A stretch of DNA of 64,000 nt from a virus. Below are positions 12,424 to 37,378 of the stretch, in pieces (positions within the stretch are counted from its first letter, which is position 1; each line of letters begins with the position of its first letter). The notes beneath the pieces were generated by a model. The model did no database searches. It was not told where the DNA came from and saw nothing but the letters and a program-made list of their open reading frames with translations. The stretch is taken from IMG/VR virus record IMGVR_UViG_3300021425_003021, positions 41,491-105,490 of that record, one strand, 5' to 3'. A program made the translations under genes and the position numbers.

Positions 12424-13797
12424 ATGGAACGTAGCGAAAGCGAAGAAATTAAACGTATTGATACTATTACACAGGAAATATCTCCTACGTTTTGTTTTGC
12501 AAAGTGGTATCACGCAAATATATATTTTCAAACAGGCGAAACACATAGTTGTTATCATCCTGCACCGCACAAGATTGATACAGCACCCTTGTTAGAAAAC
12601 CCAAGTGCTATACATAATACAGCACAAAAGAAACAAGAACGTGCTGCTATGATGCGTGGTGAACAACCTGCTGGTTGCAACTACTGCTGGAAAATTGAAG
12701 CAATGGGCAAAGATTATGTTAGTGATCGCAAACAACGTAATCAAACTATTTTCTTTAAACACAGATTGGCAGCAGTAAAAGAAGGCGGTGCAGAGTTTGA
12801 CGTAAATCCAGAATACTTGGAAGTATCATTTGGCAACGAATGTAACTTTAGATGCGGATATTGTCATCCAAAAGCCAGTAGTAGATATTATCAAGAAATT
12901 AAACAGCATGGTCCGTACACAAACGTAAAAAATCATAGATGCGATATTGACTGGTTTCAAATATTTGAAGAAGAAAACAATCCTTATTTAGATGCATTTT
13001 GGCGTTGGTGGCCTGAGCTTAGTAAAGAGCTACACATACTGCGTATTACAGGCGGTGAGCCTACAATACAAAAAAGTACATACAAACTGTTTGATATGTT
13101 GGACGCAGATCCAAAGCCAGAACTAGAATTAAACTGTAATAGTAACTTAGGTGGCAAACCAAAGCAGTTGGAAAAGTTTACTAATCGTGTAAATGACTTG
13201 TTAACAAACAATAAGATTAGACGCTTTAAAATGTTTACAAGTATTGATACTTGGGGTAAACGTGCAGAATATATCCGTGATGGATTAGACATTGAAACTT
13301 TTGAACGCAATTTGGATTACTTTATGCGTAATTGCGAAGCACCTATGGTGTTGATGATTACATTTAATATTTTTAGTGTTACAACATTCCGTACATTGTT
13401 AGAAAAAATCTTAGAATGGCGTGCCAAGTACAATGATGTAGAAACACATAGATGGCAGCGTTTGGGTTTTGATACACCACACCTTAAAGAGCCGCTACAA
13501 TACGATATGAATATTCTTCCAAAAGAATATATGAGTTATATGCACGATCACTTACAGTTTATAAAAGAAAACGTAGATGATAATCGCAAAGATGCATTCA
13601 GCACTATTGAGTATGAAAAGTTTAGACGTGTTGTTGATTATATGGAAACTACAGAATATCCATTAGAAAAAGTAATCCAAGGTAGGCAAGATTTTCACAA
13701 CTTTTTTGCAGAACAAGGCCGCCGTCGTGGAGTTAATCACGAAGAAGTTTTTCCTGAAATGACAGATTTTTTTGATTTATGTAAAAAATATGTTTGA
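12424..13797 (+). CDS. Radical SAM protein, twitch/SPASM-like (family 1)
   Basis: 457 residues. The radical SAM CxxxCxxC cluster ligands are C140, C144 and C147 (ECNFRCGYCHP), and LRITGGEPT at ~205-213 is the GGE-type SAM-binding strand. Before the core is an N-terminal region with CFAKWYHANIYF and a CNYCWK pair, which in related phage proteins resembles a twitch or SPASM-type auxiliary cluster domain. The reaction would be reductive cleavage of SAM to a 5'-deoxyadenosyl radical acting on an unknown substrate. It is the first of ten radical SAM genes in the window and follows a glycosyltransferase-like gene with one base between them. Confidence 0.85.
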   Translation: MERSESEEIKRIDTITQEISPTFCFAKWYHANIYFQTGETHSCYHPAPHKIDTAPLLENPSAIHNTAQKKQERAAMMRGEQPAGCNYCWKIEAMGKDYVSDRKQRNQTIFFKHRLAAVKEGGAEFDVNPEYLEVSFGNECNFRCGYCHPKASSRYYQEIKQHGPYTNVKNHRCDIDWFQIFEEENNPYLDAFWRWWPELSKELHILRITGGEPTIQKSTYKLFDMLDADPKPELELNCNSNLGGKPKQLEKFTNRVNDLLTNNKIRRFKMFTSIDTWGKRAEYIRDGLDIETFERNLDYFMRNCEAPMVLMITFNIFSVTTFRTLLEKILEWRAKYNDVETHRWQRLGFDTPHLKEPLQYDMNILPKEYMSYMHDHLQFIKENVDDNRKDAFSTIEYEKFRRVVDYMETTEYPLEKVIQGRQDFHNFFAEQGRRRGVNHEEVFPEMTDFFDLCKKYV

Positions 13798-14383
13798 ATT
13801 AAAATTATACAATAACGATATAGATTTATCTGATTTTTACAAAGAAGCAGAAAAGAAAAAATTTTACAATAATAGTAGTCAAGAAATGCTTATCGATTAC
13901 ATCAGTAAATATGAAGATGCTAAACTATGGTTATTATTATATGATAAAAAGGTAGTAGGCACTGTTGTTGCACACAGGTTGCGTGAATTAGGAATACTAG
14001 GAAAAGATGCATATAGAATAGGTGCTAGGACCTGTGTCCTCACTCATTTAATCGGCAAACAAAGAGTAAAGAGTTTAAAAGGAAAAACTGATATTCATTA
14101 TTCTCACGCATCTCAATTTTTATTACCTGCTTGTATTGAAGGCGTTGGCAAAGACAAACCTTTATATCTTAGTACACATACAGGAAATATAGGTAGCCAA
14201 AATAAAGTGCATAATTTTTGGGCAAAACATTTTCATATTGCAGGAGTGCTCGAAAATCCTATAGAACTCGAATACAGGGGCAGTTTTCAAACATTTTGGA
14301 AAGTTAATGTTGACAAATTTTATGAGACATTAAGACTATCTAGATGGTCTGAAGCAGAAGATGTTATACCAATTTTAGTTTAA
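13790..14383 (+). CDS. GNAT-like acyltransferase-fold protein
   Basis: 197 residues from the ATG at 13790; a TTG at 13772 is also possible, but neither has a clear ribosome site. LWLLLYDKKVVGTVVAH at ~48-63 is like GNAT strands beta2-beta4. The later segment LYLSTHTGNIGSQNKVHNFW resembles the V-shaped strand and last helix (WTHNVDNKALNAMYQ) of the protein at 46754-47413, so the two may be distant relatives. A clear Q/RxxGxG/A acetyl-CoA loop is not obvious. It overlaps the end of the radical SAM gene upstream and the convergent tail-fibre gene downstream by 9 bases. Call is moderate at best. Confidence 0.4.
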   Translation: MFELKLYNNDIDLSDFYKEAEKKKFYNNSSQEMLIDYISKYEDAKLWLLLYDKKVVGTVVAHRLRELGILGKDAYRIGARTCVLTHLIGKQRVKSLKGKTDIHYSHASQFLLPACIEGVGKDKPLYLSTHTGNIGSQNKVHNFWAKHFHIAGVLENPIELEYRGSFQTFWKVNVDKFYETLRLSRWSEAEDVIPILV

Positions 14384-15820
14384 ATTTACCCAGTTACTAC
14401 CGTCATAACCTTGGAATTTTCTTGTAGAAGTGTTAAAAATAATCATTCCTTCTTCGGCAGAAACGTCGGTTAAATCTGCTTCGGTATGTCCTTTTGCTTT
14501 AAATATAGGAACAGATAATACGCCTGCACCGTTGAAATTTAAGCCTGTTGGATTATCCCAAAATGCACTAGGTAGGTTTCTGCCGTCGCTTAGAGTAATT
14601 GCAAAGTCTGTTGGATAAATTTCTAAATCTGGATCTGGTTCAATTTCTGTATTAGCATAGAATCCCATACCGCCACCAATCTTATATGCAATACCGTCAT
14701 ATGCGTGAGTAGTAAATACTGCCATATGATCGCCAGGATTAAGAGGTAGTTTATTTTCGTGATCGCCGTTAAATGCAAAATAATTAATCTGTCCAAGATT
14801 TGATGTGTTAACCGGATTTGATTGTAATTTAAAACTTATGTTATCTGCATAAACTTCTAGTGTTTCGGTTGCATTGTATCCAATATTAATTTCACCAGTT
14901 GCACCACCTTCTAATCTTACCTGACCTTCGTTTACAGTCAGCACAGGTTGGTCTTCACCGGCAAACACTTCGCCTATTACGTTACCCATAAATGTTGCAA
15001 GTACACTAGGTTTGTCTGTGCCTTCCCATCTAGATAGTTCTAGTACAGGTGTGGCATCAAAATATTCAATGTTTCCTCTGAAACTTGTTTCTTGGTCATT
15101 GTTTGTAAATTTTAGTATAGGTGCATGAGAATCTGGATGTTCTATACCTGATCTAAACACGTGATGTTCTAGTGTTTCATTCCAAGTAAGCACAGGTTCG
15201 TTATTGTCTGGTCTAACTATACTACCTTTTAAATCGCCGTGTAAAACACCGCTACTACCTTCTAAAATCATATCGCCATTTTCGGTGACAATATCTCCTG
15301 TTAAATTACCAACAACATTGCCTTGTACATTTCCTAAATGTAATCCTGTACTGTTACCAGTCAGATCTCCTGCAAAACTACCTGTGATAGTTCCTACTAA
15401 GTTTACTTCGCCGTTGTGTGTACCATACACATCACCTACAATTCGATCTACAATTAGTGTGCTTGTTCCTGCATCGTAAATTATGTCACCTACACTGTTT
15501 ACAATATTGCCTTCTAAATTGCCTTTTAATAAACTACGATTTACATCTACTATTACATTGTTATTAGTGTCCTTAACATTACCTACAACATCCATATGTA
15601 CTGTTCTACTATCAGAATTGAACAAAATGTCGCCTTCGTCGTTTTCAATATTACCTATAAGTGGCCCGTATAGCTTTCCAAATGTAGTATCAACTTGAAT
15701 AACACCATCTCTGTTTACAACATTTGCTTTAATTTGGCTAAGCCAACTATCTATAATAAGTGTGCTATCAGCACCAACAATATCAATGCGATACGAATCA
15801 CCTGGTATAAAATCAGTCAT
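14375..15820 (-). CDS. Tail-fibre-like protein (reverse strand)
   Basis: 481 residues, read opposite to its neighbours. The N-terminal half is built of short repeats around G-D/N-hydrophobic-x-G-N (LTGNSTGLHLGNVQGNVVGN), suggesting a beta-helical shaft. The C-terminus IIFNTSTRKFQGYDGSNWVN closely matches the end of the fibre at 53080-54993 (MIYNTTTNKFQGYANGAWVD), a common fibre-tip ending in marine phages. The start ATG at 15818-15820 has TAGGAG upstream and an ATAAATAC box behind it. It probably encodes an additional fibre or decoration protein, embedded among sugar-modification genes. Confidence 0.75.
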   Translation of the reverse strand: MTDFIPGDSYRIDIVGADSTLIIDSWLSQIKANVVNRDGVIQVDTTFGKLYGPLIGNIENDEGDILFNSDSRTVHMDVVGNVKDTNNNVIVDVNRSLLKGNLEGNIVNSVGDIIYDAGTSTLIVDRIVGDVYGTHNGEVNLVGTITGSFAGDLTGNSTGLHLGNVQGNVVGNLTGDIVTENGDMILEGSSGVLHGDLKGSIVRPDNNEPVLTWNETLEHHVFRSGIEHPDSHAPILKFTNNDQETSFRGNIEYFDATPVLELSRWEGTDKPSVLATFMGNVIGEVFAGEDQPVLTVNEGQVRLEGGATGEINIGYNATETLEVYADNISFKLQSNPVNTSNLGQINYFAFNGDHENKLPLNPGDHMAVFTTHAYDGIAYKIGGGMGFYANTEIEPDPDLEIYPTDFAITLSDGRNLPSAFWDNPTGLNFNGAGVLSVPIFKAKGHTEADLTDVSAEEGMIIFNTSTRKFQGYDGSNWVNLN

Positions 15821-15837
15821 ACTTTTTCTCCTACAGA

Positions 15838-15845
15838 GTATTTAT
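15838..15845 (-). promoter_or_regulatory. Candidate late promoter box ATAAATAC (reverse)
   Basis: GTATTTAT on the forward strand reads ATAAATAC on the reverse strand, 17 bases before the start of the reversed fibre gene and just upstream of its TAGGAG ribosome site. Confidence 0.5.
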
Positions 15846-15852
15846 TCTAATA

Positions 15853-15881: not shown

Positions 15882-15887
15882 TACTGT

Positions 15888-17831
15888 ATGTATGATGTTT
15901 ACTTAATTGCCAACAAAGATGTGTATTCACAAGAATACAAGGATCTTAAATCTAAAATACCGATGCTCAAGTGTGTTGATTCAATTGATCAAGCACAAAA
16001 AAGTTGTATTACTAAATTCTTTTGGGCAGTGTATCCAGACTTAGACATTTGTGAAGATTTCAATTTTGATTATGTACCTGATGATTGGAGTCAAGATTAT
16101 GTTCACGTATTTCTAAATGATAAAGAATATGACGGTATTAGTCTTATACCAAAAAAAGCAAAAATATCTCAAAAAGAAATTGATTATAGATTTTTTGTAA
16201 ATAAAAAATTTATTGAAATTGTAGCCAGTAATCCAAAACCTTATGATTATTTTGAAATAGATAACTATGAACAATACTGCGATGCATTAGAAAAAACAAA
16301 AACTCAAATGTTTTGGATGAGCAGTCCTAACATAAAAGTTAACGAAGTTGTTGATACTTTTTATATTTCTCACCACGAATCCTCTTTGAGACAACAAAAT
16401 CATGCTTTCATTCACAGGGTGGATGATGAAGATTATTATAATGGGTTGTTTTTATGCAGTAAAGATATGCCACTTACAGAAAAAGAAGTTGAACACAGAT
16501 TTCCTGTTGCAAGGAAAGAATGGGATATTGTAGCAAGTGGTCCTTGTAAGTATGATATATTTGAAATTAGTACATTTGAACAATATACAAAAGCTCTTGA
16601 AAATACTAAAACTGAAATGTTTTGGATGAGTAGTGCAAATATAGATGCAACAATACCCAATATTTACTTTACACACGATCAGAAATACAATAGACTGCGT
16701 AATCACGCATTTATACACAGAGTAAAAGGCGAAGATCATTACAACGGCTTGTTTTTATGTAGTAAATTAAAACCGTTATCAAAAAAAGAAGTTGATTACA
16801 GACACCCTGTTGATAGAAAAGAATGGGATATTGTAGGATCTACAGAAGCTAAATATCAAATATATTTTGTAGATTCGTATCAAGCATATTTAGATGCGTA
16901 TGACAGAGCTGATACAGAAATGTTTTATGTTGTTCCTGGACACGTAGATCTTTTAGATGACTTTGCATTTGACGATTATTACAATCACGAAAATGAATAT
17001 GATAGAAAAATTAATCACGTATTTTTAAATGGAGAATTCCACGATGGTGTAGTTTTGTGTAGTAAGCACAGTAAAATTAGTGCTAGAGAATGGCAGTTTA
17101 TGTTTATTCAACATAAAAAAGAACACAACAAATTAGTAAGTACTCCTAAACCGTACGATATGGTTTTCATAAGTTACGAAGAAACTAACGCTGATGAAAA
17201 CTACGAACTTATTTTACAAAGGTATCCACATTGTAAAAGAGTACACGGGGTAAAAGGAATTCATCAAGCTCATATAGAAGCTGCTAAACAATGTTCTACT
17301 CCTATGTTTTGGATTATCGATGGCGATGCACAAATCGAAGATGATTTTAATTTTGAATATCAGGTACCTGTATGGCAATGGGATCACGTACACGTTTGGC
17401 GCAGCAGAAATCCAGTAAATGGACTTGTATATGGCTATGGTGGTGTAAAGCTATTTCCTAGAGAATTAACCATTAATATGGATACAAACAAACCAGATAT
17501 GACTACAAGTATTAGCTCTAAGTTTAGGGCAGTACAAAAAGTTAGTAATGTTACAGCCTTTAATGTTGGTGAATTTGAAACCTGGAAAAGTGCTTTTAGA
17601 GAATGTTGTAAGTTAAGCAGTAAAGTAATTGACAGACAAAAAGATGTCGAAACTGATAGAAGATTGAAAATATGGTCATCTATTGGACGTGATAAACCGT
17701 TTGGAGAGTTTGCGATCAGAGGTGCTAAAGAAGGCACTATGTACGGCACTGCTAATAAAGGAAATATCGAGGCTTTGAAAAAAATAAATGATTTTGATTG
17801 GTTAAAGGAAGTTTACAATGGAAATCTATAA
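15888..17831 (+). CDS. Multi-repeat glycosyltransferase-like protein
   Basis: 647 residues made of about five related units of ~100-115 residues. Each has a MFW-like strand, a VHVF/AFIHRV strand and a NGLFLCSK-type end: near residues 44-90, 141-192, 243-293, 344-393 and 472 onward. Only the last unit has a metal-binding DGD (478-480, FWIIDGDAQIEDDF) and continues into a full GT-A-like domain like that at 11508-12422 (NGLVYGYGGVKLFPRE). The earlier four look like catalytically dead copies that could bind a glycan. The start is supported by homology of MYDVYLIANKD to the start of each repeat and by the consensus promoter ending at the ATG. Confidence 0.65.
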   Translation: MYDVYLIANKDVYSQEYKDLKSKIPMLKCVDSIDQAQKSCITKFFWAVYPDLDICEDFNFDYVPDDWSQDYVHVFLNDKEYDGISLIPKKAKISQKEIDYRFFVNKKFIEIVASNPKPYDYFEIDNYEQYCDALEKTKTQMFWMSSPNIKVNEVVDTFYISHHESSLRQQNHAFIHRVDDEDYYNGLFLCSKDMPLTEKEVEHRFPVARKEWDIVASGPCKYDIFEISTFEQYTKALENTKTEMFWMSSANIDATIPNIYFTHDQKYNRLRNHAFIHRVKGEDHYNGLFLCSKLKPLSKKEVDYRHPVDRKEWDIVGSTEAKYQIYFVDSYQAYLDAYDRADTEMFYVVPGHVDLLDDFAFDDYYNHENEYDRKINHVFLNGEFHDGVVLCSKHSKISAREWQFMFIQHKKEHNKLVSTPKPYDMVFISYEETNADENYELILQRYPHCKRVHGVKGIHQAHIEAAKQCSTPMFWIIDGDAQIEDDFNFEYQVPVWQWDHVHVWRSRNPVNGLVYGYGGVKLFPRELTINMDTNKPDMTTSISSKFRAVQKVSNVTAFNVGEFETWKSAFRECCKLSSKVIDRQKDVETDRRLKIWSSIGRDKPFGEFAIRGAKEGTMYGTANKGNIEALKKINDFDWLKEVYNGNL

Positions 17832-18864
17832 ACTGCTAGATAGGTTTGAGTTATTATATAAAAATGATGATCAATTAGCTGATTTACGCAGAGCATATAT
17901 AGATCAAGATTTGACAAGCATATTTAAATTGTCAAATAGTAGCGAAGATCTACGTAAAGCAATTATGGAAGAAAATTGGCACAGTATTTTCCGTATTATT
18001 GACAATAAAAGAATTATTGGAGAAATTGACGATTTACGAAAAGCAATACTTGAAGAAAACTTGCATAGTCTTTTTAGACTTTTACCAGGTACTGACGATT
18101 TAAGAAAAGCTGTGCTTGATAAAAACATCCACAGTATTTTTAGATTAGTTGATAACAAAGATCTCAAAGGTTTAGTTTTAAACGACAATTATTACGACTT
18201 ATGGAGAATATTAGACAAGTATACTCAAAGCCATTTTGTATATGCATTTAAAACACTGTTAGAAAACGAAATCGAATTTGACGAAGATTGTTTTAGTAGA
18301 GGGCAATTAGAAAGTAAACTTTGGTTAATAGAAGAACTTAAAAAAACAAGTATGAGTTTAGGAACAGTGTTTTTGTGTGCAGGGTGGTACGGAACACTTG
18401 CTACAATGATGTTTGAAAACAATTTAGATGTTATTAAAATTAGAAGTTTTGATGTTGATAAAACTTGTCCAACTATTGCAGAAATATTCAATAAAAAATG
18501 GGTAGTAGATGATTGGAAATTTAAAGCAAGTGTACAAGATATACATGATATAAATTTCAATGAAGAACACGTTTATCGTGTATATAAATCTAATGGCGAA
18601 GAAGAACTATTATGGGATTCGCCGGACACTATTATTAATACCAGTTCGGAGCACATACATAATTTTACAGAATGGTATAATAAAATACCCGATGGTAAAT
18701 TAGTTGTTATACAAGGCAACAATTATTTTGAAATTGAAGAACACGTAAATTGCAGTAAAGATTTAAAAGAGTTTAGCGATAAATCTCCAATGACAACAGT
18801 ATTATATGAAGGCGAATTAGAATTGCCAAAGTACAAAAGGTTTATGAAAATTGGATTTAAGTAA
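17818..18864 (+). CDS. Repeat-containing protein with methyltransferase-like C-terminus
   Basis: 348 residues. Residues ~20-135 contain five copies of a ~20-residue helical repeat read as DLRKAILEENLHSLFRL with spacers of 5-15 residues; the last copy (KDLKGLVLNDNYYDLWRI) is degenerate. From ~170 the sequence changes to a Rossmann-like region (GTVFLCAGWYGTLATMM, then IKIRSFDVDKTCPTIAEIF) that fits a class I SAM-dependent methyltransferase core, with an acidic DVD after strand 2. It overlaps the upstream repeat glycosyltransferase gene by 14 bases. Methyltransferase activity is inferred from motif order only; the repeats probably bind a partner or substrate. Confidence 0.5.
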   Translation: MEIYKLLDRFELLYKNDDQLADLRRAYIDQDLTSIFKLSNSSEDLRKAIMEENWHSIFRIIDNKRIIGEIDDLRKAILEENLHSLFRLLPGTDDLRKAVLDKNIHSIFRLVDNKDLKGLVLNDNYYDLWRILDKYTQSHFVYAFKTLLENEIEFDEDCFSRGQLESKLWLIEELKKTSMSLGTVFLCAGWYGTLATMMFENNLDVIKIRSFDVDKTCPTIAEIFNKKWVVDDWKFKASVQDIHDINFNEEHVYRVYKSNGEEELLWDSPDTIINTSSEHIHNFTEWYNKIPDGKLVVIQGNNYFEIEEHVNCSKDLKEFSDKSPMTTVLYEGELELPKYKRFMKIGFK

Positions 18865-19075: not shown

Positions 19076-20144
19076 AAATATAGTATTGTTGTTTGATGAT
19101 GTGCAAACGAAATACGGCAAATTAAATTTTGGTAATGAACATATAGACGAGCTGTATACTCAAATTGTATACAGCAAAAGGGATGACCCGGATCCTAAAA
19201 TTATTCCTATTTTTTACACACACCGGGAAGAAGAAAAATATGTAAACGAATGGATTGCAGATGTAATAAATTTTTTTAACAGGCATAAAGATTTTATAGA
19301 GCTAACTAACAACAAAATTGTTGTATGCGATTTGTTAGAATCTAATAGAACACTTGCAAAGTCTGTTGAAATTGTATCAAACTACGTCCAGAAAATAATT
19401 TATGTAGTAACACCTAACTACAAAGTTATATCAACTAATAAAGTAAAATTCTTACACAATCCTACATTTTACAAATTTTTATGGCCGATAAAAAATACCC
19501 TAAAGTACAAACCAAAAAAATTATATATAAATTTAAATAGGGCATATAGATATCATAGAGCTTTGCTCATAGATAATTTGTATGAACACAATTTATTAAA
19601 ATGTGGATATACAACATTTGGAGATGCTTATAATGATATAAATCAATATATAGAAGAAAATCCTAATAGCAATCTTGACAAAATTAAATTTGACATCTTA
19701 GACGAACCTGATTTAAAAAATGTAAATCCTGTTTACAAATATCCAGCCGAGTGTAAAAAAAGTTTTTTATTTCTCAACACAGAAACGTGGGTTGATAATG
19801 ACAGATTATTTTTAACTGAAAAATCTTTTAAGCCGGCAGGGATAGGTATGCCTTTTATAAATTTAGGAAACCCTGGTACATTAGCAAAAATGCGAGAGCT
19901 AGGTTTCTACACATTTAGCCCTTGGATAGACGAATCTTACGATTTAGATTTGCCATTACAACAAAGAATCGATATTGTAATTGAAAATTTAAAACGTCTA
20001 AGTCAACATACTGATAAAGAATTAATAAAAATTAGAAACCAAATGAATTATAGAATACAACATAACCACAGATTATATAATATTTTTTATAACAAAAATT
20101 TTACAAACGAAAACTTTCAACTTATTGTAAATGGAGCAGTATAA
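19065..20144 (+). CDS. Putative glycosyltransferase (EK-motif type)
   Basis: 359 residues. The C-terminal half has LFLTEKSFKPAGIGMPFINL followed by LAKMRELGFYTFSPWIDESY. The protein at 47459-48520 has the same layout (YITEKVWKSMLYERPIIIWG, then LKEMGFKLYNKYFDLNFD), so they form a family. An E-K with a following proline-rich strand and a 'GF' helix resembles the donor-binding half of GT-B fucosyltransferase-like enzymes, though this is a weak similarity. It lies between a small ORF and the nucleotide-sugar dehydrogenase gene, with a one-base overlap to the latter, which supports a role in surface sugar synthesis. Confidence 0.45.
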   Translation: MIDKNIVLLFDDVQTKYGKLNFGNEHIDELYTQIVYSKRDDPDPKIIPIFYTHREEEKYVNEWIADVINFFNRHKDFIELTNNKIVVCDLLESNRTLAKSVEIVSNYVQKIIYVVTPNYKVISTNKVKFLHNPTFYKFLWPIKNTLKYKPKKLYINLNRAYRYHRALLIDNLYEHNLLKCGYTTFGDAYNDINQYIEENPNSNLDKIKFDILDEPDLKNVNPVYKYPAECKKSFLFLNTETWVDNDRLFLTEKSFKPAGIGMPFINLGNPGTLAKMRELGFYTFSPWIDESYDLDLPLQQRIDIVIENLKRLSQHTDKELIKIRNQMNYRIQHNHRLYNIFYNKNFTNENFQLIVNGAV

Positions 20145-21235
20145 TGTCTATCGCCTGGATCGGATTAGGAAAACTTGGATTGCCTTGTGCTGAAATTATT
20201 GCAAGCAAAGGAATCGATGTTAATGGATATGATATCAAAAAAAGTAAAACCGAGCGTGTTTTAGGATTTCCTAATCTAGCCGGTGCAGTTTCAACTGCAA
20301 GTATGGTCTTTGTAGCAGTACCTACACCGCATCACTCTGATTATGACGGAAGTATGCCTATCAGTCATTTGCCTCCTAAAGACTTTGATTATGACATATT
20401 GTACGATGTTGTTTTACAATGCGATAGAAATATGACAAAAGGAAAAATACTTGTAATTATTTCTACTGTGTTACCTGGAACTATTAGAAAGCTTAAACAA
20501 AAAGTAAAAAATGCAATTATTGTTTACAATCCTTATCTTATAGCCATGGGTACAGTTGCGCACGATATGGTAAATCCAGAAATGGTTATGATTGGAACAG
20601 AAAATGGAAAAACAACGGCTGAAGCACAAGCGTTGATTGATTTTTATAAAAAAATAATGGAAAACAATCCACGTTACATAGTAGGAACTTGGGAAGAGTG
20701 TGAATGCATTAAAGTTTTTTATAATACATTTATAAGCACAAAACTTGCACTTGTAAATATGATACAAGATGTTGCTGTTAAAAATGGTAATGTAAATGTT
20801 GATGTAGTTACAAAGGCTTTAGCAGATTCTACTCAAAGAATAACAGGTAGTGCCTATATGAAGGCAGGAATGGGCGACGGCGGTCCTTGTCATCCAAGAG
20901 ACAACATTGCTTTGCGTAAGTTATCTCAAGACCTGAATTTAGGGTATGATATATTTGGATGCATTGTTGAAGCTAGAGAAAAACAAGCTGAAAACATGGC
21001 CATAGAAATTTTAAAATATGGAAACAAAGTAAAATTTAGCAGTAACAGCTACAAACCTGATACAGATTTAATCGACGGAAGTTATAGTTTATTAGTGCAA
21101 TATTATGTTAAAAAGCACGGTGGTTGGTTAGTTGATGAAAAACCAACAGTTTATGTTTTAGTGCATCCAGAAGACAAACCAATGGAAAATGTTTACAATT
21201 TTGATCCTTGGCATAATTATGGAAACAACAAATGA
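20144..21235 (+). CDS. UDP-glucose/GDP-mannose dehydrogenase family protein
   Basis: 363 residues. GLGKLGLPCAEI near residue 7 is the NAD-binding GxGxxG fingerprint, VFVAVPTPHH follows as the usual strand with PTP, and STVLPGT matches the family's substrate-binding loop. MGDGGPCHPRDN near residue 246 corresponds to the catalytic-cysteine loop (GFGGSCFPKD in the family), with the Cys retained. The family oxidises a UDP- or GDP-sugar to the uronic acid in two NAD-dependent steps. At 363 residues it is shorter than the usual 430-450, and the C-terminal nucleotide-binding domain looks reduced. It most likely supplies an acidic sugar to the adjacent transferases. Confidence 0.75.
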   Translation: MSIAWIGLGKLGLPCAEIIASKGIDVNGYDIKKSKTERVLGFPNLAGAVSTASMVFVAVPTPHHSDYDGSMPISHLPPKDFDYDILYDVVLQCDRNMTKGKILVIISTVLPGTIRKLKQKVKNAIIVYNPYLIAMGTVAHDMVNPEMVMIGTENGKTTAEAQALIDFYKKIMENNPRYIVGTWEECECIKVFYNTFISTKLALVNMIQDVAVKNGNVNVDVVTKALADSTQRITGSAYMKAGMGDGGPCHPRDNIALRKLSQDLNLGYDIFGCIVEAREKQAENMAIEILKYGNKVKFSSNSYKPDTDLIDGSYSLLVQYYVKKHGGWLVDEKPTVYVLVHPEDKPMENVYNFDPWHNYGNNK

Positions 21236-24655: not shown

Positions 24656-24686
24656 AAATATATTTATAAAATAAAGTGCGTATTTA
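24654..24686. promoter_or_regulatory. Divergent late-like boxes between two radical SAM genes
   Basis: ATAAATAT (24654-24661) faces the gene starting at 24687. On the reverse strand TAAATAC (24686-24680) faces the gene starting at 24655. Each box lies over or beside the start of the opposite gene. No sigma70 -35 box is visible in the gap. Confidence 0.4.
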
Positions 24687-29355: not shown

Positions 29356-30172
29356 GTCTAGCAACAATTTATACAAAAAATTAGGTGAAGAATTTATTTT
29401 AACAACTATTAGTCACCTTGATATACCTTTTAGTAAAAAATGGAAAAGAATTGGAATTAATTTAAGTGGCGGTGCTGACAGTGCATTACTTGCTTTTTTG
29501 TTAGGAAAAATTATTACTGATAATAATTTAGATTGCAAAATAGATGTAATCACATATCAACGTTGTTGGGAAACAAGACCTTGGCAAGGTTGGTGGAGTT
29601 TGCAGGTTTTCAATAAGTTAAAAAGTTTTTATCCTGATGTTATTGAAAATAGACACACAACATTTATACCTCCTGCATTAGAACACGGTGTAAGCGGTCC
29701 TATTATAGATGGACGCAGTGGAGATCAGATTATAGTTGGCGATTTTAACAAATTTGCCAGTTGGGAATACAATTTAGATGCAGTGTTCAATGCTACAAGT
29801 AAAAATCCTGATGATTCACGTGAGGATAGAATGAAAAACAGAGATGGGGATGCTGAAGATGCAAATACTTGGGATGTTTTATGGTATAGTGGAAAATTAA
29901 AAAGTCATTTTTGCCATCCTTTTAGGTTTGTTAAAAAAGATTGGATAGTAGCTCAATATCATCTTTACAATATCACAGATCTGTATTATACTACACGTAG
30001 CTGTGAAGGAGATATCAATCATAACCAAGCTGTATCTGATGTTGTGAAAGACTTCACAAAATACACTCCTGGTATGGATGTACCTGTTTGTAATGAATGT
30101 TGGTGGTGTAGTGAAAGAAAATGGGCCGAAGACAGAGTCCCTGAAATGATAAAGGAAATAAATGAGTTTTGA
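29348..30172 (+). CDS. QueC/ExsB-like PP-loop ATPase, paralogue
   Basis: 274 residues from the ATG at 29348, chosen because AGGA at 29335-29338 is well placed; the longer frame from 29318 lacks a site. KRIGINLSGGADSALLAFLL is the PP-loop and TTRSCEGDI with CNECWWCSERKW gives the QueC-type four-cysteine zinc site. It aligns with 27141-28097 through the core, including FxxxxKxWIxxQYK near the cysteines. Family knowledge: adenylation of a carboxylate followed by amidation or nitrile formation. It overlaps the flanking radical SAM genes by 8 and 11 bases. The radical SAM/PP-loop unit is duplicated in tandem here. Confidence 0.7.
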   Translation: MFKSSNNLYKKLGEEFILTTISHLDIPFSKKWKRIGINLSGGADSALLAFLLGKIITDNNLDCKIDVITYQRCWETRPWQGWWSLQVFNKLKSFYPDVIENRHTTFIPPALEHGVSGPIIDGRSGDQIIVGDFNKFASWEYNLDAVFNATSKNPDDSREDRMKNRDGDAEDANTWDVLWYSGKLKSHFCHPFRFVKKDWIVAQYHLYNITDLYYTTRSCEGDINHNQAVSDVVKDFTKYTPGMDVPVCNECWWCSERKWAEDRVPEMIKEINEF

Positions 30173-31340
30173 TACAATAGATTTACTTACAGGGCACGTT
30201 TTTCAAGTAACTTGGGATACAGGTCGTAGATGCAATTATGATTGTAGTTATTGTCCTGTACATAGACACGATAATTTTTCACCACACGCAACATTGGACA
30301 GTTTGAAAGACAATGTTGACTTTCTTTATGAATATATTGATTTGCATATACAATATAGAAAGAGTAAGATTGCTAATATAGGGTTTACAGGTGGCGAACC
30401 CACTGTTAATCCTAACTTTATTCCTTTTGCGCAATATCTTAGATCTGAATATGATACCAAATACAAAGACAAATGGGAATGTGGATTTGCTCTAACTACA
30501 AATGGTGCTATGGGTGAAAAAATGGGTCAAGCAGTGATGGAAAATTTTGATCACGCTACAGTAAGTTATCATAGCGAAAGCGACAACAAGTTAAAACAGC
30601 AAGTTAAAGATAGAATTTTACAGTTTCATTATCAAGGAGAGATGCATAATTTCACAGTCAGCGTAAATGTTATGTTTCATGCTGAATATTTTGACGAATG
30701 TAAAGAGCTATGTGGATTTTTGGAAAGCCATAATGTTGATTATGTGCCAAGAGTTATCGGTGAAGAGCCTGATAGTAGACCTAGTTTTGCACACAAATAC
30801 AATGAAGAACAATTACAGTGGTTTAAAGATTACTGGCGTGTAAAGAATGAAAACAAAAATGACGAAAAAGAAATTAGCAAAGTATTAAGTGCTGCCGGTG
30901 AAAAGAAAAATGAAAAGAAAAAACTAGGTAACAGTATCGGACGTCCTTGTTGTGGTAGCAGAGATATGTTATTACATACCGGAGCAAACAGTCGTAAAAG
31001 TAATTTTGTAGACTTTAGAGAATTCAAAGGATGGAATTGTAGTGTGAACTGGTTCTTCCTACATTTAGAACAACAAACAGATAGTGTTTATCATCATCAA
31101 ACTTGTCAGGCACGTTTTGATGGTACTAGGGGACGTATTGGTAAACTAAGTGAAGGTAAAAAACTTATTGCAGATCTAAAAGAAAAAATGGAAACCAATA
31201 GTATGCCAACTATTATTTGTCCTAAACAAACCTGCGGTTGCGGATTGTGTGCTCCAAAAAGTATGCATCAAGCTAGATATTTAGAAGTTGTAGGCAATCA
31301 TATCGAAACAGAGGTATTAAATGATTATAACAGGAAATAA
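30162..31340 (+). CDS. Radical SAM protein (family 3)
   Basis: 392 residues. The cluster ligands are C24, C28 and C31 (GRRCNYDCSYCPVHRH) and NIGFTGGEPTVNP is the GGE strand. SVNVMFHAEYFDECKEL follows. The C-terminal third has FREFKGWNCSVNW and HHQTCQARFDG, then QTCGCGLCAPKS, so at least one auxiliary cluster is plausible. The gene at 36257-37378 shares the GRxCNYxCSYC start and the FKGWNC motif, defining family 3. A charged insert of Lys/Glu runs around residues 230-250. It starts 11 bases inside the previous PP-loop gene and is overlapped by a small SDR gene. Confidence 0.85.
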   Translation: MSFDTIDLLTGHVFQVTWDTGRRCNYDCSYCPVHRHDNFSPHATLDSLKDNVDFLYEYIDLHIQYRKSKIANIGFTGGEPTVNPNFIPFAQYLRSEYDTKYKDKWECGFALTTNGAMGEKMGQAVMENFDHATVSYHSESDNKLKQQVKDRILQFHYQGEMHNFTVSVNVMFHAEYFDECKELCGFLESHNVDYVPRVIGEEPDSRPSFAHKYNEEQLQWFKDYWRVKNENKNDEKEISKVLSAAGEKKNEKKKLGNSIGRPCCGSRDMLLHTGANSRKSNFVDFREFKGWNCSVNWFFLHLEQQTDSVYHHQTCQARFDGTRGRIGKLSEGKKLIADLKEKMETNSMPTIICPKQTCGCGLCAPKSMHQARYLEVVGNHIETEVLNDYNRK

Positions 31341-31875
31341 AGATAAAGGTATTGCAAAGGCATTACATAAATTATATCCAGATGCAGAATTTTGTAGTCA
31401 AAGTACAGGTTATGATTTAGCACGTAAACTAGATCAAGAAAGATTAGCAGAGCGTGTCTGTGAACACGATGTGTTTATTAATTGTAGTGCATTGTTTAAA
31501 TTTCATCAAACAACACTTCTTAACATTGTATATCACAAATGTATGTTAGAAAAACATTGGTGTCATATTATTAATGTAGGTAGTACAACAGATAGAGTAA
31601 AAAAAGGCGGCAGCTGGTTATACAATGCAGAAAAGAAGGCATTAAGAGATTACTCAAACACATTAGGATTAAACGGAGTTTGGCACAGTGGTCCTAAGAT
31701 TAGTTACATAAGTTTTGGTACTTTGAGTAATAACCAAGAAAAACATCCAAACAGAACTGTAATTGATATTGATGAAGCAACTAGTTATATCAAATGGGTA
31801 ATTGATCAGCCTAGAGAGCTATGCATAAATGAAATTAGTATAGACCCTATGCAACCAGACCATTGGAAAAGCTAA
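31321..31875 (+). CDS. Short SDR-like oxidoreductase
   Basis: 184 residues. MIITGNKDKGIAKAL is a short Rossmann start with ITG and the Gly-containing loop, HDVFINCSALFKFHQ corresponds to the NNA-type strand (NCS), INVGSTTDR carries the catalytic Ser position, and LYNAEKKALRDYS has the YxxxK catalytic pair. Length is below the usual ~250 for SDRs. The proteins at 38042 and 42687 share the same compact form, so they are paralogues. The family uses NAD(P)H to reduce or oxidise alcohols and ketones. It overlaps the radical SAM genes on both sides (20 bases and 1 base). Confidence 0.65.
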   Translation: MIITGNKDKGIAKALHKLYPDAEFCSQSTGYDLARKLDQERLAERVCEHDVFINCSALFKFHQTTLLNIVYHKCMLEKHWCHIINVGSTTDRVKKGGSWLYNAEKKALRDYSNTLGLNGVWHSGPKISYISFGTLSNNQEKHPNRTVIDIDEATSYIKWVIDQPRELCINEISIDPMQPDHWKS

Positions 31876-33083
31876 TGTCTGATTTGCCAAAGTATGCTTG
31901 TCAACTTCCTATGCATCATATGGCAATACGTCCAGATGGTCGTGTTATGCCCTGTTGTTATTTCAGGCATGAACACGTTCCTACAGATTTAAATTTATCT
32001 TTAGAAGATCCTTTTAACCATCCTTTTATGAAACAAAATAGAGAAAGTGTTTTAAATGATGAAATGATTCCTGGTTGCAGCAAATGCTACGAAGATGAAA
32101 AAACATCTGGTAACAGTATGCGCACCGACATTTATAACTCTCCATACAATTTTTTAAATTTACCTACAGATGATACTAGAGGTAAAGTTGCAAAACTTAC
32201 AAATATTGATGTAACATTTAGTAACGTTTGTAACAACAAGTGTAGAATGTGTGGTCCAGAACTTAGTACACAATGGTACAGTGACGCTAAGAAAATGGGA
32301 TATCCTTTTGAAAAACGTGGTGTAATTGCTGAAAACAAATGGATAGAAACAGCCAATGTAAGTGATTTAACATTTATCAAGTTCTTAGGCGGCGAACCGT
32401 TAATGGAACAGGAAAAAATGATACAGCTATTGCAAAAGTGTAATAGAGAAAAATTAGTCGTTCATATTACCACTAACGGAACATTATTGCCTAATGAGAC
32501 ATTACATAATTTACTAACAGAATGCGAAGGTGTGTATATGACTGTTAGTGTAGATCAATTTGGACAGTTTAACGAGTTTTTACGTAAAGGCAGTAATTGG
32601 AATACCACCATTGAAAATATGTTTACAATGAAAGAGCATTATGGTAAGCATACAACAACTGTACATTCTGTAACATCAATATACAATGTAAATTTGTGTA
32701 ATCAATTGATCGATTTTTGTATTAATGAAAGATTTTATCAAAAAAATGCTGTTGTTGACGGTCCTAATTGGATGATGCCAAGAAATCTGCCAAAAAAAGT
32801 CAAAGCTAAATTAATAAAGTTGCTAAATTTAAACATACAAAATACAAACCTGCCAAAACATTTGTCATATCTATATGATGCAACTGCTCATTATGAATTA
32901 CTAATTAATGAATTAGAGCAAGATGGCGATTTTGGAATGTTTTTACGTAATGATACAAGACTAAACATTATACGCAATGAACATTGGAAAGATTACAATC
33001 CATGGCTATGGAATGAGCTTAAACCTTATTTTGTTGAAACACAACTTGAAGATGGACAATTGGATTATCTAAATACTCTCTGA
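31875..33083 (+). CDS. Radical SAM protein (family 1)
   Basis: 402 residues from the ATG at 31875 (TAATG with the previous stop); an in-frame TTG at 31863 also exists. CQLPMHHMAIRPDGRVMPCC and GCSKCYEDEKTSGNSMR form the typical N-terminal region. Ligands are C119, C123 and C126 (VCNNKCRMCGPE), and IKFLGGEPLME is the GGE strand. The CGPE after the cluster and the following tryptophan match the 34905 protein. The gene ends directly before an ATAAATAT box that opens the next small operon. Substrate unknown. Confidence 0.85.
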   Translation: MSDLPKYACQLPMHHMAIRPDGRVMPCCYFRHEHVPTDLNLSLEDPFNHPFMKQNRESVLNDEMIPGCSKCYEDEKTSGNSMRTDIYNSPYNFLNLPTDDTRGKVAKLTNIDVTFSNVCNNKCRMCGPELSTQWYSDAKKMGYPFEKRGVIAENKWIETANVSDLTFIKFLGGEPLMEQEKMIQLLQKCNREKLVVHITTNGTLLPNETLHNLLTECEGVYMTVSVDQFGQFNEFLRKGSNWNTTIENMFTMKEHYGKHTTTVHSVTSIYNVNLCNQLIDFCINERFYQKNAVVDGPNWMMPRNLPKKVKAKLIKLLNLNIQNTNLPKHLSYLYDATAHYELLINELEQDGDFGMFLRNDTRLNIIRNEHWKDYNPWLWNELKPYFVETQLEDGQLDYLNTL

Positions 33084-33090: not shown

Positions 33091-33113
33091 AGTTATTAAG
33101 ATAGAGAGTTAAA

Positions 33114-33614: not shown

Positions 33615-33615
33615 T

Positions 33616-34200
33616 TTGCAAATCGTATATGGCGAGCCAAGAACAGGTTCTCATTTTATAGCAAGGAATTTTGCAAATCAATACAACAAAATATTTTTAG
33701 GTGAGTATTTTAAAAGTCCAATTCCTAATGCACAAGTAAACATATTTAAAAAAATTGATACATTACCAAAAAATTCTGTTATCATAGTTCATCCAGATTT
33801 ATCATATGGACAATATCCTGAAGAATTTTACACTTGGTTATTTTCCAATGAATTAATTGTCACAGAAACTGATGATAGATGGCGGCAGGTTGTCAGTTGG
33901 GGACTTGCAGCAAAAACAACAAATTATCACAGTTATAATGGTTCAAGATATTTAGAACAAAATATCGCATACAAAAGAAATTTTTTTGATATGTTAAAAA
34001 ATTCTATTAAAAAATACAACGAAACAAAACATCTAATAAAATACAAAGATTTAATAAATTTAAGTAGTATAAAAAAACAACAAGTTTTTGAAGGAAAATA
34101 TCAATTACCACACAAAACATATCGACAAAAAACAGATGAATTATGTCTAATGTATAGCAATTTAAATGAAGTAAAACAGTGGTACAATGAACTATTATAA
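33616..34200 (+). CDS. Sulfotransferase-like P-loop protein
   Basis: 194 residues from a TTG start; AAAGG lies ~10 bases before it. IVYGEPRTGSHFIARNF at 3-19 resembles the 5'-phosphosulfate-binding loop of sulfotransferases (P-R-S/T-G-S/T...), preceded by a first strand. VIIVHPDLSYG and LIVTETDDRWRQVVSWGLA fit the later strand with the conserved Arg/Ser region where PAPS 3'-phosphate is held. Lys-Tyr at IKYKDLIN is like the family's KYEDL motif. Transfer of sulfate from PAPS to an alcohol or amine is possible, but the identification rests on short motifs only. Confidence 0.5.
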   Translation: MQIVYGEPRTGSHFIARNFANQYNKIFLGEYFKSPIPNAQVNIFKKIDTLPKNSVIIVHPDLSYGQYPEEFYTWLFSNELIVTETDDRWRQVVSWGLAAKTTNYHSYNGSRYLEQNIAYKRNFFDMLKNSIKKYNETKHLIKYKDLINLSSIKKQQVFEGKYQLPHKTYRQKTDELCLMYSNLNEVKQWYNELL

Positions 34201-34205
34201 TGTAA

Positions 34206-34213
34206 ATAAATAC
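34206..34213 (+). promoter_or_regulatory. Candidate late promoter box ATAAATAC
   Basis: The octamer lies in the short gap before the nitroreductase gene at 34235, 21 bases upstream of its ATG. AGGAG at 34224-34228 is between them. The paralogous gene at 39918 has the same arrangement. Confidence 0.5.
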
Positions 34214-34234
34214 AATTGTATACAGGAGATTACC

Positions 34235-34885
34235 ATGGATCATAAACAAATTGAAAAAGCAGTGATTAGAAGTCAACATTGTCAGCGTAATTGGGACTTG
34301 TCAAAACAAATTCCACAAGAAGATTTAGATTTAATTCAACACGCTGTAACACAATGTCCTAGCAAACAAAATGTTGCTTTTTACAAAGTGCATATGATTA
34401 CCGATAGAAACTTAATCGAAGCCATACACGCTAATACAGAAGGATTTACAACAAATTTTGTTACAATGGAAGGTGAAACCAACAGTCAAACACTAGCAAA
34501 TCTGTTAATTGTTTTTGAGGCATACAACGGTCATTTAAATAAAGATAACAATGTATTCAGAAATGATGAAATATTGAAAATGGACACAGGAAAAGAACTA
34601 ACTGAAGCAGAGCAAGAAACATTTAAAAGAGATCAACAAATGGCAGTTGGCATTGCAGCAGGTTATGCTAATGTAACTAGTGCAATGATGGGATACGGAA
34701 CTGGTTGCTGTGCTTGTTTTGATGGTAAAGCAATAGAAGATTTACTAAATTTAGATGGTCCTGTTTTATTAATGATGGGTATAGGATATAAAGATCCAAC
34801 TCGTAATAGAAGAGAGCATCACGAAACTGGGTTTGTATTTCCTACAAAACCAAAACAAAAGATCAAAGTTAAAAAGCATTACTAA
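34235..34885 (+). CDS. Nitroreductase-family flavoprotein
   Basis: 216 residues from the ATG at 34235, chosen because AGGAG at 34224-34228 precedes it and the paralogue at 39918 starts at the same point (HKDIKKAIIRSQHCQRNW); a longer frame from 34187 is not conserved. RSQHCQRNWDL is the FMN-binding start, CPSKQNVAFYKVHMI is the P-S motif region, and MAVGIAAGYANVTSAMMGYG is the family helix leading to GTGCCACF. The family reduces nitro groups, quinones or enones with NAD(P)H via FMN, and some members act in natural-product dehydrogenation. An RNRREHHETG signature near the C-terminus is shared by both paralogues. Confidence 0.8.
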   Translation: MDHKQIEKAVIRSQHCQRNWDLSKQIPQEDLDLIQHAVTQCPSKQNVAFYKVHMITDRNLIEAIHANTEGFTTNFVTMEGETNSQTLANLLIVFEAYNGHLNKDNNVFRNDEILKMDTGKELTEAEQETFKRDQQMAVGIAAGYANVTSAMMGYGTGCCACFDGKAIEDLLNLDGPVLLMMGIGYKDPTRNRREHHETGFVFPTKPKQKIKVKKHY

Positions 34886-34904
34886 TTGTTCTATTAAATA
34901 GTGT

Positions 34905-36233
34905 ATGAAAGATACTTTTTGCCCAATTCCTTGGAATTTTCAGGCTGTGCGAAACAATGGCGATATACGTATATGCTGTCAAGCTAATGTAACAGAAAAT
35001 CAAGGAGTGATTAGACACTGTGATGGTACTCCTTATAATGCAAGTCGTGACAGCTTAGAAGATGCACGTAATGCCAATCTTATGAAAACTGTTCGAAAAA
35101 ATATGCTTAATGGTGTTTGGAGCCAAGAATGCGGCAGATGCCAGCAGGAAGAAGAAGCAGGACTTAACAGTAGACGTCAATATGAGCAACAAAATTGGCC
35201 TACATTTACTATTGATAAGGCAAAACAAGTCACTGACGACGATGGCGGTGTAAGTGAAATTCCAGTAACTTATTACGATTTACGTTTCGGAAACTTGTGT
35301 AATCTTGCTTGTAGAATGTGCGGACCTACTGACAGTCATACTTGGTATGAACAATGGGTAGATTATCACAAATCAAATGAATATATTGACACACACGGCA
35401 CAGTATCATTGCAACGTAATGCCAAAGGAAGACTGTTCACAAACGATTATGATTGGCACGGCAGTGATGTATTTTGGAATAGTATTGAAAAAAACATTCC
35501 AAATATAAAACACGTTTATATGGCTGGCGGAGAGCCCATGATGATCGAACGTCATTATGAATTTTTACAAAAATGTATAGATAGCGGTTATGCTGGTAAA
35601 ATCATTATAGAATATAATACAAATATGACTAATCTTCCTGAGCGTGTATTACAAATGTGGAAACATTTTAGACAAGTTAGAGTTGGAGCCAGCATCGATG
35701 GATACGGCGATATGTTAGAGTATCAAAGATGGCCATTGAAATGGAACCAAGCATATAAAAATTTAAAAAAGTTAGATCAATTGTGTATTGATAATAAAAA
35801 CATATTTGCTTGGCTAGCTTGCACAGTAACAGCTAATAATGTATTTCATATACCTGAATTTATGTGGTGGAAACTAAAAGAAAGTGGTTTTAAAAAAATT
35901 AATAGTTCTAAAAAAAGACCTGTAATTACACACCACGTAGCACACGGTCCAAAAAGAACAAACATAAAATTATTAGATCCTACACTAAAATTAGATTTAC
36001 ACAATCATTATGAATCTTGGAAAAATAAATTTATGTTTGATAATGAAATCGAACAAAGTGTAAAAGAAAATGCAACTAGTATACTTGATAGTATATTAAA
36101 ATTTGCAAACAAAGAAGATTATTCAAATGATTATATCGATGAATTTGTAAATTTTACAAAATACTTAGATAAAGCAAGAAATCAAAATATACTAGATGTT
36201 GTACCACAATATTCTAAATTATTTGACAAATAA
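34905..36233 (+). CDS. Radical SAM protein (family 1)
   Basis: 442 residues. CPIPWNFQAVRNNGDIRICC and CGRCQQEEEAGLNSRRQ form the N-terminal region. Ligands are C132, C136 and C139 (LCNLACRMCGPTD), YMAGGEPMM is the GGE strand, and VGASIDGYGDM follows. Closest in layout to 25778-27181. There is no clear ribosome site; ATTAAATA sits just 5 bases before the ATG, so a late-type leaderless start is possible but unsupported. The end of the gene carries the TTGACA of the next promoter. Confidence 0.85.
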   Translation: MKDTFCPIPWNFQAVRNNGDIRICCQANVTENQGVIRHCDGTPYNASRDSLEDARNANLMKTVRKNMLNGVWSQECGRCQQEEEAGLNSRRQYEQQNWPTFTIDKAKQVTDDDGGVSEIPVTYYDLRFGNLCNLACRMCGPTDSHTWYEQWVDYHKSNEYIDTHGTVSLQRNAKGRLFTNDYDWHGSDVFWNSIEKNIPNIKHVYMAGGEPMMIERHYEFLQKCIDSGYAGKIIIEYNTNMTNLPERVLQMWKHFRQVRVGASIDGYGDMLEYQRWPLKWNQAYKNLKKLDQLCIDNKNIFAWLACTVTANNVFHIPEFMWWKLKESGFKKINSSKKRPVITHHVAHGPKRTNIKLLDPTLKLDLHNHYESWKNKFMFDNEIEQSVKENATSILDSILKFANKEDYSNDYIDEFVNFTKYLDKARNQNILDVVPQYSKLFDK

Positions 36234-36251
36234 CGCAAGGAATGTTATAAT
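36223..36251 (+). promoter_or_regulatory. Consensus sigma70 promoter for a leaderless transcript
   Basis: TTGACA at 36223-36228 lies inside the last codons of the upstream gene. TATAAT is at 36246-36251, with a 17-base spacer. The predicted +1 is at 36258, one base from the A of the ATG at 36257. Confidence 0.7.
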
Positions 36252-36256
36252 TAGAA

Positions 36257-37378
36257 ATGACTGAAGATTTAAAATGGTCAAACTATGACTTTACTAAAAT
36301 ACCGTTTGATGATATTGTTCAAGTAGGACAACGTACTTTATTATATAGAGATATCTTTACAGTGTCTTGGCTATTAGGTAGATTTTGTAATTACAGATGT
36401 AGTTATTGCTGGCCTTATGCACGTAGCGATAGAAAAGATCATAGACCCACAGAATTGTGTTTAAAAACCATAGACGAAATAAAGAGGCAAGCACGTGAAA
36501 ACGGATTTAATAGTTATCATTTTTCTCTTAGTGGCGGGGAGCCTACTTTCCACCCTGGCTACTTGGATATTTTACAGCATTTGGCTAATGATGTAGAAAA
36601 CACAAATTATACAAGTATTCATATGACTAGTAACTGTAGTCGGCCAATGAAATGGTTTGAAACTTATGTAGAACGTGCGAAACCATTTCACAGAGCAAGT
36701 ATTACAGCAAGTTTACATACAGAACACTTAAATACAAAGGAGAAGATGCAGGACTTTGCAGATAAATTAATCCTGTGTCAAGAACACGATGTACAGATTA
36801 CCATTAATATGGTCATGGTACCTGAATGGTTCGAGAGAGATTGGGAAAACGCCCTCTTCTTCCACGAACAAGGAATCAACGTTACACTCAAGCCGCAATC
36901 CGATCCAACGGCTAGTAGAGTGGTTGACGGGTACAAAGAAGAAGACCTAAAACGTTTATGGAACGGAATGCCTCAACGAGCATACACAGAATCAAAAAGA
37001 AAATTTGTAGATAGACCAAAGCCCAAGTTTGAAATCCCTAAAGACATAATGTACAGACCAGATGCTAGTGTACCTTGGCATATGCAGGTAGAATTTAGAG
37101 ATAGTCAAGGCAATCCTTGGTATATGGATCAAGCCGAAAGATTTAATGCTTTTGAATTTAATAAATTTAAAGGATGGAATTGTAATGCAGGATATCAAGG
37201 TATTATTATTCGCGAACCTGATGGAAGTGTTAAACGCAGTTACAGTTGCCACGATGTACCGTTGGGCAATATTGAAACAGGATTTAAACTGTTTGACAAA
37301 CCTATGCCTTGTATGACAGATAGTTGTGTTAGTAGTGCAGATAGTAAAATTCCTAAAAGGAAAATTGATGCATTATAA
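36257..37378 (+). CDS. Radical SAM protein (family 3)
   Basis: 373 residues. Ligands are C44, C48 and C51 (RFCNYRCSYCWPYARSD) and HFSLSGGEPTFHP is the GGE strand. The C-terminal third shares NKFKGWNC with 30162-31340 and then has cysteines in SYSCHDVP and MPCMTDSCVSS, probably for an auxiliary cluster. A consensus sigma70 promoter ends at its ATG, predicting a leaderless mRNA. It opens the block of oxygenase and SDR genes and overlaps the next gene by 11 bases. Substrate unknown. Confidence 0.85.
   Translation: MTEDLKWSNYDFTKIPFDDIVQVGQRTLLYRDIFTVSWLLGRFCNYRCSYCWPYARSDRKDHRPTELCLKTIDEIKRQARENGFNSYHFSLSGGEPTFHPGYLDILQHLANDVENTNYTSIHMTSNCSRPMKWFETYVERAKPFHRASITASLHTEHLNTKEKMQDFADKLILCQEHDVQITINMVMVPEWFERDWENALFFHEQGINVTLKPQSDPTASRVVDGYKEEDLKRLWNGMPQRAYTESKRKFVDRPKPKFEIPKDIMYRPDASVPWHMQVEFRDSQGNPWYMDQAERFNAFEFNKFKGWNCNAGYQGIIIREPDGSVKRSYSCHDVPLGNIETGFKLFDKPMPCMTDSCVSSADSKIPKRKIDAL

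Follow-up and report, generated by a model that had tools for sequence, protein, structure and literature searches.

The stretch of viral DNA analysed here, called the window throughout, is 64,000 nucleotides long (positions 41,491 to 105,490 of IMG/VR record IMGVR_UViG_3300021425_003021) and forms the right-hand part of a 105,490-base virus record. Between its positions 12,424 and 37,378 it carries ten genes for radical S-adenosylmethionine (rSAM) enzymes, all but one of them on the plus strand, with other enzyme genes packed between them. It is nearly certain that this block is real, conserved and selected, and it is likely that its genes serve one pathway. The explanation we favour, to which we give about an even chance, is that the block is a modular island for tailoring a glycan or glycoconjugate and is common to T4-like marine viruses and Bdellovibrionota chromosomes. 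The source virus is marine and T4-like, the latter because its gp23-type major capsid protein is 65-70% identical to those of large T4-like phages (Vibrio phage 2.275.O, Phosso, PA5oct, and GAP32). The record is probably a fragment of the genome.

A preliminary description of this DNA had listed ten rSAM enzymes with their cysteine triads, and the list held when the triads were read again. All ten open reading frames (ORFs) are present at the position and on the strand given for them, and each of the ten proteins has both a CX3CX2C motif and a match to PF04055. There are exactly ten PF04055 matches in the 105,490-base record and every one lies inside the block, while the 52 window proteins contain 10 CX3CX2C motifs against a mean of 0.16 on shuffling. 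The matches of T1, F2a, and F2b fall below Pfam's own cut-off and are nevertheless significant. The division into three families, which had also been proposed, proved sound. Six proteins pass the curated cut-off (170 bits) of the NCBIfam family N_Twi_rSAM (NF033640), the twitch domain-containing radical SAM proteins. These are T1 (12424..13797, plus strand, C140/144/147, 299.8 bits), T2r (23438..24667, minus strand, with an ORF that would open at 24784 if it started at the upstream TTG; triad 119/123/126 counted from its ATG, 244.5 bits), T3 (25778..27181, plus, C146/150/153, 418.5 bits), T4 (28084..29355, plus, C115/119/122, 204.6 bits), T5 (31863..33083, plus, triad 119/123/126 from an internal ATG, the first cysteine being 123 if counted from the TTG, 244.7 bits), and T6 (34905..36233, plus, C132/136/139, 363.2 bits). 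The other four score 24-46 bits on this model, far under its cut-off, and are not members. Family 2 consists of F2a (22365..23450, plus, C18/22/25) and F2b (24687..25781, plus, C14/18/21), which were identified by profile matches and are 32% identical to each other. Family 3 consists of F3a (30162..31340, plus, C24/28/31, PF04055 43.8 bits) and F3b (36257..37378, plus, C44/48/51, PF04055 58.2 bits). Auxiliary cysteines precede the rSAM domain in the six N_Twi proteins whereas they follow it in family 2 (C257, C276, C277, C345, and C349 in F2a). In T3 the N-terminal auxiliary cysteines C28, C90, and C93 are invariant and C9 and C27 nearly so among 36 sequences. T2r, T3, and T5 pass the SPASM (PF13186) gathering score at the N-terminus and the others are below it. 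The name N_Twi_rSAM states no reaction and says nothing about the other four rSAMs or the pathway.

Recent duplication in place was rejected, since T3 shares no more than 20-34% identity with the five remaining N_Twi proteins and their divergence is therefore old. A C-terminal docking tail common to N_Twi rSAMs and PP-loop proteins was also rejected: the tail is a signature of N_Twi proteins (T1, T2r, T3, and T6), and outside that family only the window's own PP1 resembled it (E 0.036) while PP1 homologues did not. An eleventh, QueE-like rSAM is encoded outside the block, 25 kb away at 62813-63709 on the minus strand. It has a CX3C without the usual third cysteine (CNFRCMNF), for which C86 in 'TGCDTYA' may substitute, and it gave no Pfam match at E 0.05.

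Because the viruses sampled are those closest to the queries, the counts that follow describe this lineage and not viruses at large. All 46 related IMG/VR records tested carry 9-22 rSAM genes each. The preliminary description had implied that the density of the block is unique; instead, this is one of many such viruses, and rSAM-rich phages have already been published. T3 is 82-93% identical and F3b 76-93% identical across 80 viral loci each, and for F2a and F3b there are more than 500 candidate stretches each in IMG/VR. The genes occur in related viruses as dense groups and not only as scattered single copies, with 6-13 rSAM genes per 21 kb (median 9) at 34 distinct T3 loci with full flanks, 4-11 (median 6) at 45 F3b-anchored loci, and 1-12 (median 8) at 25 F2a loci. 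Within about 10 kb of T3 in the 34 full-flank loci we found F2a in 31, g17818 in 30, gt4 in 26, and F2b and F3b in 20 each. The typical order is gt1-gt2-gt3-(T1)-(fibre)-gt4-g17818-F2a-(T2r)-(F2b)-T3-(PP1)-T4-PP2-F3a-sdr-T5-T6-F3b, with insertions and losses. Close homologues were not found among 50,697 phage records. For T3, F2a, F3b, and T6 there were only remote matches of 22-28% identity, in Vibrio phages K566 and K567, Campylobacter phages, Pelagibacter phage Mosig, and one marine single-cell virus, and for PP1 there was none in isolated phages, which were thus rejected as a source of close homologues. Among isolated phages, those closest in capsid protein carry 0, 4, 0, and 1 rSAM genes; for comparison, CP220 has 11, Mosig 2, and K566 6. 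K566 and K567 have been sequenced and carry four N_Twi rSAM genes in one cluster (L194), and could provide a laboratory system.

All the block genes that were compared are under purifying selection, and T3, T1, and F3b far more so than the rest. Synonymous sites are saturated in pairwise comparison (proportion of differing synonymous sites, pS, about 0.5-0.8). For loci with an orthologue, the nonsynonymous distance (dN) is 0.05-0.14 for T3, 0.03-0.09 for T1 at a pS of about 0.5-0.7, and 0.08-0.20 for F3b; on the more distant contigs it is mostly 0.2-0.5 for F2a, F2b, F3a, and PP2 and about 0.4-0.5 for T4 to T6. Since the low dN of T3, T1, and F3b stands beside saturated pS and the higher values of T4 to T6, the genes have a selected function, with a fixed core and a variable periphery. 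Saturation also led us to reject recent transfer as the cause of the high T3 identity.

The core has a chromosomal counterpart in bacteria. T3 orthologues that are about 50-62% identical were found in Bdellovibrionota genomes on contigs of up to 936 kb, where they adjoin F2a (37-48%), F3b (55-68%), and homologues of g17818 and gt3/gt4. The Bdellovibrionota genomes that carry the core have no gp23 gene, and misbinned phage DNA was therefore rejected as the source of these contigs. It is the case for some small metagenome-assembled genomes: two T3 contigs (G058 C3, locus L176, and G060 C1, locus L181), from marine assemblies labelled Gammaproteobacteria and Chloroflexi, carry gp23 and are probably misbinned T4-like phage contigs. 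N_Twi_rSAM was above the cut-off in 94 of 291 Bdellovibrionota genomes versus 0 of 14 control genomes, with 10-37 matches in single genomes. The island at 745-775 kb of contig 1 of genome G047 (L195-L196) has about 15 rSAM genes in 29 kb together with Asp_Arg_Hydrox, 2-oxoglutarate (2OG) oxygenases, and an aminotransferase-like gene, a toolbox much like that of the window. Similar islands in G049 and G054 hold B12-binding-type rSAMs and multi-helix membrane proteins. An amidinotransferase common to CP220 and the G047 island was considered and was not confirmed by Pfam. In the T3 tree the viral sequences branch from among Bdellovibrionota, next to Bacteriovoracaceae/Halobacteriovoraceae. Transfer of T3 from bacteria to viruses is thus likely and not certain, because the root of the tree depends on very distant outgroups.

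The link to sugars comes from the partners of the core rSAMs. The AlphaFold2 (AF2) model of gt3 (11508..12422, plus), with a predicted local distance difference test (pLDDT) score of 90.6, has GT-A glycosyltransferases and nucleotidyltransferases as its top PDB matches in Foldseek, and the protein has a conserved DGDN and bacterial homologues at 36-49% identity. In alignment gt4 (15888..17831, plus) has degenerate GT-A-like repeats followed by an intact DGDA domain, and its homologue L186 passes the Pfam Glycos_transf_2 (GT2) cut-off. Both proteins combine a GT-A-like fold, at low template modelling (TM) scores, with a DxD motif, and from fold and sequence they are glycosyltransferase-like with a predicted role in sugar transfer. 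The degenerate GT-A-like copies ahead of the intact one in gt4 appear to be several, and in some relatives the ORFs that contain gt3 are 880-1230 amino acids long. One Oligoflexia protein (L189) is a fusion of F2a and gt4. Of 7 bacterial genomes, 4 have a Pfam GT2 gene no more than 10 kb from T3, where about 0.06-0.12 per genome would be expected (P about 0.002 under a simple length model for these seven genomes), and in some genomes PMT-like, amine-oxidase/UDP-galactopyranose-mutase-like, and AsnB genes are near T3. Within the block itself there is a gene of the UDP-glucose/GDP-mannose dehydrogenase family (20144..21235, plus, PF03721 and PF00984).

We infer a glycan substrate, an order of steps and a role at the surface as follows. 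A fixed core of T3, F3b, and F2a together with gt3/gt4 and g17818, joined by T1 in a subset, would make or attach a common sugar-containing scaffold. Exchangeable rSAMs, QueC-like PP-loop ATPases, short-chain dehydrogenases/reductases (SDRs), nitroreductases, and 2OG oxygenases would then decorate this scaffold by C-H chemistry and by ATP-dependent activation, probably with amide formation. Four viral loci (L068, L092, L095, and L098, some of them near-identical) encode fusions of T4 and PP2, and because PP1 and PP2 are QueC-like PP-loop proteins a reasonable guess is that this step amidates a carboxylate at the expense of ATP. Since the block surrounds a gene for a tail-fibre-like protein (14375..15820, minus), read from the sequence and matched by a homologue in the same position in 14 of 34 loci, the product would most likely be used on a surface, either the envelope of the infected cell, against competing phages, or the virus's own fibres. 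That the virus carries a multi-step tailoring pathway, as the preliminary description suggested, is well supported by synteny, selection constraint and gene fusions. The same description left a choice between a peptide, a glycan and a small molecule; the evidence points, short of proof, towards a glycan.

Several results weigh against a glycan substrate. In Foldseek gt3 reaches TM-scores of only about 0.3, which is low, and the gt3 of the window itself gives no match in Pfam. Only 19 of the 77 N_Twi genes listed for the seven bacterial genomes are near GT2, in the largest bacterial island (contig 1 of G047) no rSAM has a GT2 gene within 10 kb, and glycosyltransferase genes lie within 10 kb in only 3 of 45 F3b-anchored loci. 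Lastly, the solved folds closest to T3 are the peptide-modifying rSAMs SkfB and CteB, at low TM-scores. In the T3 model (pLDDT 86.8) these two come first among the rSAM folds, followed by viperin, anSME, MoaA, and BlsE, all of them at low TM-scores; the model confirms T3 as an rSAM and does not identify its substrate. These folds bear on the main rival, which we consider rather unlikely: that the rSAMs introduce cross-links or epimerised residues into a structural protein of the phage, for example the embedded tail fibre, or into a small peptide, and that the GT-A proteins glycosylate this protein or peptide. Auxiliary cysteines of the twitch/SPASM type, such as those of the three proteins that pass the SPASM score, are a typical feature of rSAMs that modify peptides; gt3 has the peptide S-glycosyltransferase SunS as its best fold match; and a fibre gene lies inside the block. 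On the other hand, no curated model for maturases of ribosomally synthesised and post-translationally modified peptides scored over its cut-off, and the UDP-glucose dehydrogenase and nearby GT2 and PMT genes indicate sugars. Moreover, the genes run nearly end to end, most neighbours in the block overlapping by a few to some tens of bases, with a single intergenic gap above 70 bp, of 200 bp; the window therefore shows no evident gene for a small precursor, although overlapping small ORFs were not screened systematically. Tailoring of a glycan is favoured, at about an even chance, and tailoring of a protein is its main rival.

That there is no single pathway, and that independent host-boosting metabolic cassettes have gathered in a hypervariable island, is improbable. 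The accessory content does differ between loci, the rSAM modules of Campylobacter phages have been read as interchangeable host-boosting genes (PMC2853527), and rSAM cassettes are listed among island additions in pelagimyophages (PMC7029224), but the fixed core recurs in viruses and bacteria, members of the block are fused to each other, and T3, T1, and F3b are extremely constrained. Least probable of all, and very unlikely, is a nucleobase or queuosine-like pathway in which QueE-like and QueC-like steps are extended by further rSAMs to modify DNA or tRNA: PP1 is QueC-like, PP1 and PP2 have a common four-cysteine pattern, the T4-PP2 fusion resembles a pairing of QueE with QueC, and a QueE-like gene is in the window, but that gene is 25 kb off, tRNA-guanine transglycosylase, dpdA, QueD, and FolE were not recognised in the block, the PP proteins reach no NCBIfam QueC model (none reported at E up to 0.1), and GT-A, methyltransferase, and oxygenase partners do not fit it.

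The two PP-loop proteins, PP1 (27141..28097, plus; phrog_1550, QueC-like) and PP2 (29318..30172, plus; 36% identical to PP1), are like QueC (7-cyano-7-deazaguanine synthase) and PP-loop ATPases in the PP-loop SGGADS and the C-terminal four-cysteine set, and unlike QueC they are fused to or adjoin N_Twi rSAMs. The SGxADS residues and C229, C258, C261, and C264, a QueC-type four-cysteine zinc site, are invariant in 26 sequences. The core partner g17818 (17818..18864, plus), recognised by synteny, has N-terminal helical repeats and a methyltransferase-like C-terminal domain and matches Mosig_00090, a 'putative methyltransferase', at 6.6e-16. Its repeats number about five, of the form DLRKAIxExNxHSIFRL, and may perhaps be a protein-binding scaffold on the methyltransferase-like domain. 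Other enzymes of the block are a GNAT-like acetyltransferase (13772..14383, plus; recognised by eye, with no Pfam match, and syntenic in related loci), an SDR-type reductase (31321..31875, plus; weak PF00106, syntenic), and a nitroreductase-family flavoenzyme (34187..34885, plus; PF00881, 39.5 bits). Accessory enzymes continue downstream (37326..41234, plus) with oxygenase-like proteins, including an Asp_Arg_Hydrox match at 39136 (30 bits), and, by likeness, an SDR at 38042 and a second nitroreductase at 39918. The block is preceded by genes of baseplate and fibre-like type. Neither VrlC nor gp14, the genes between which a host recognition cluster of the pelagimyophage type lies, was identified in the record. 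The same variable region has a fatty-acid desaturase (50484-51101, minus), a subtilase-like peptidase (51136-53070, minus) that adjoins a tail-fibre gene, and a SET-like protein (41766-42257).

Multiplicity of rSAMs alone is not new because phages with 11-12 rSAM genes have been published. The Campylobacter phages CP220 and CPt10, which like this virus are T4-like with many rSAMs in a module, have 11 and 12, five of them in an interchangeable module (PMC2853527), and the CP220 module adjoins two genes with nucleotide-diphospho-sugar transferase domains, a point in favour of the glycan reading. They differ from the window in that the proteins are only about 22-23% alike, the N_Twi core order and a PP-loop match are absent, and a putative amidinotransferase is present. 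The environmental genome TARA_ERS488813_N000010, also marine and T4-like, has a comparable number, 12 rSAM genes, and an iron-sulfur (Fe-S) carrier gene (PMC5332604). The parts of that paper compared here, by description only, discuss the rSAMs as Fe-S metabolism and describe no core, bacterial homologue or pathway. Fe-S carrier genes, IscU and/or A-type, also occur in three large rSAM-rich viral records among the relatives (G027:C1:16117-16780, G041:C1:28752 and 184572, and G046:C1:2793), the IscU match in G041 holding one internal TAA; no Fe-S supply gene was found in the window's record, itself probably a fragment. In pelagimyophages the host recognition cluster is a hypervariable island of tail fibres, glycosyltransferases, and rSAM cassettes (PMC7029224). 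Pelagibacter phage Mosig is like the window in having rSAM genes, nitroreductases, an aminotransferase, and a g17818 homologue. It differs in that it has 2-3 rSAMs and that a T3-type protein was not detected in it, and the window's virus has a capsid protein nearest to those of GAP32/PA5oct-type large T4-like phages. In the open-licence PMC literature searched we found neither the conserved core common to viruses and bacteria, nor its counterpart in bacteria, nor the links to glycosyltransferases and PP-loop proteins, and in that sense they are new.

Radical SAM enzymes install changes beyond ordinary chemistry, and to our knowledge in nearly all the rSAM sets studied a pathway has between one and a few of them. 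In the present case a single pathway seemingly uses about ten, is conserved in many uncultured viruses, and is present in bacterial chromosomes, which gives two independent settings for finding its product. Tentatively, and with less confidence than in the tailoring island itself, we propose that this is a new class of biosynthesis, in which glycans or glycoconjugates are made by radical chemistry. It would be native to Bdellovibrionota and would have been acquired by a widespread lineage of large T4-like viruses, which possibly infect these bacteria; core rSAMs that are fixed would build a scaffold together with GT-A transferases, and some 5-15 exchangeable rSAMs would diversify it. The finding offers an explanation, open to test, of why phages rich in rSAMs have been noted since 2010, and a possible way to connect a widespread group of uncultured marine viruses with candidate hosts or with donors of the genes.

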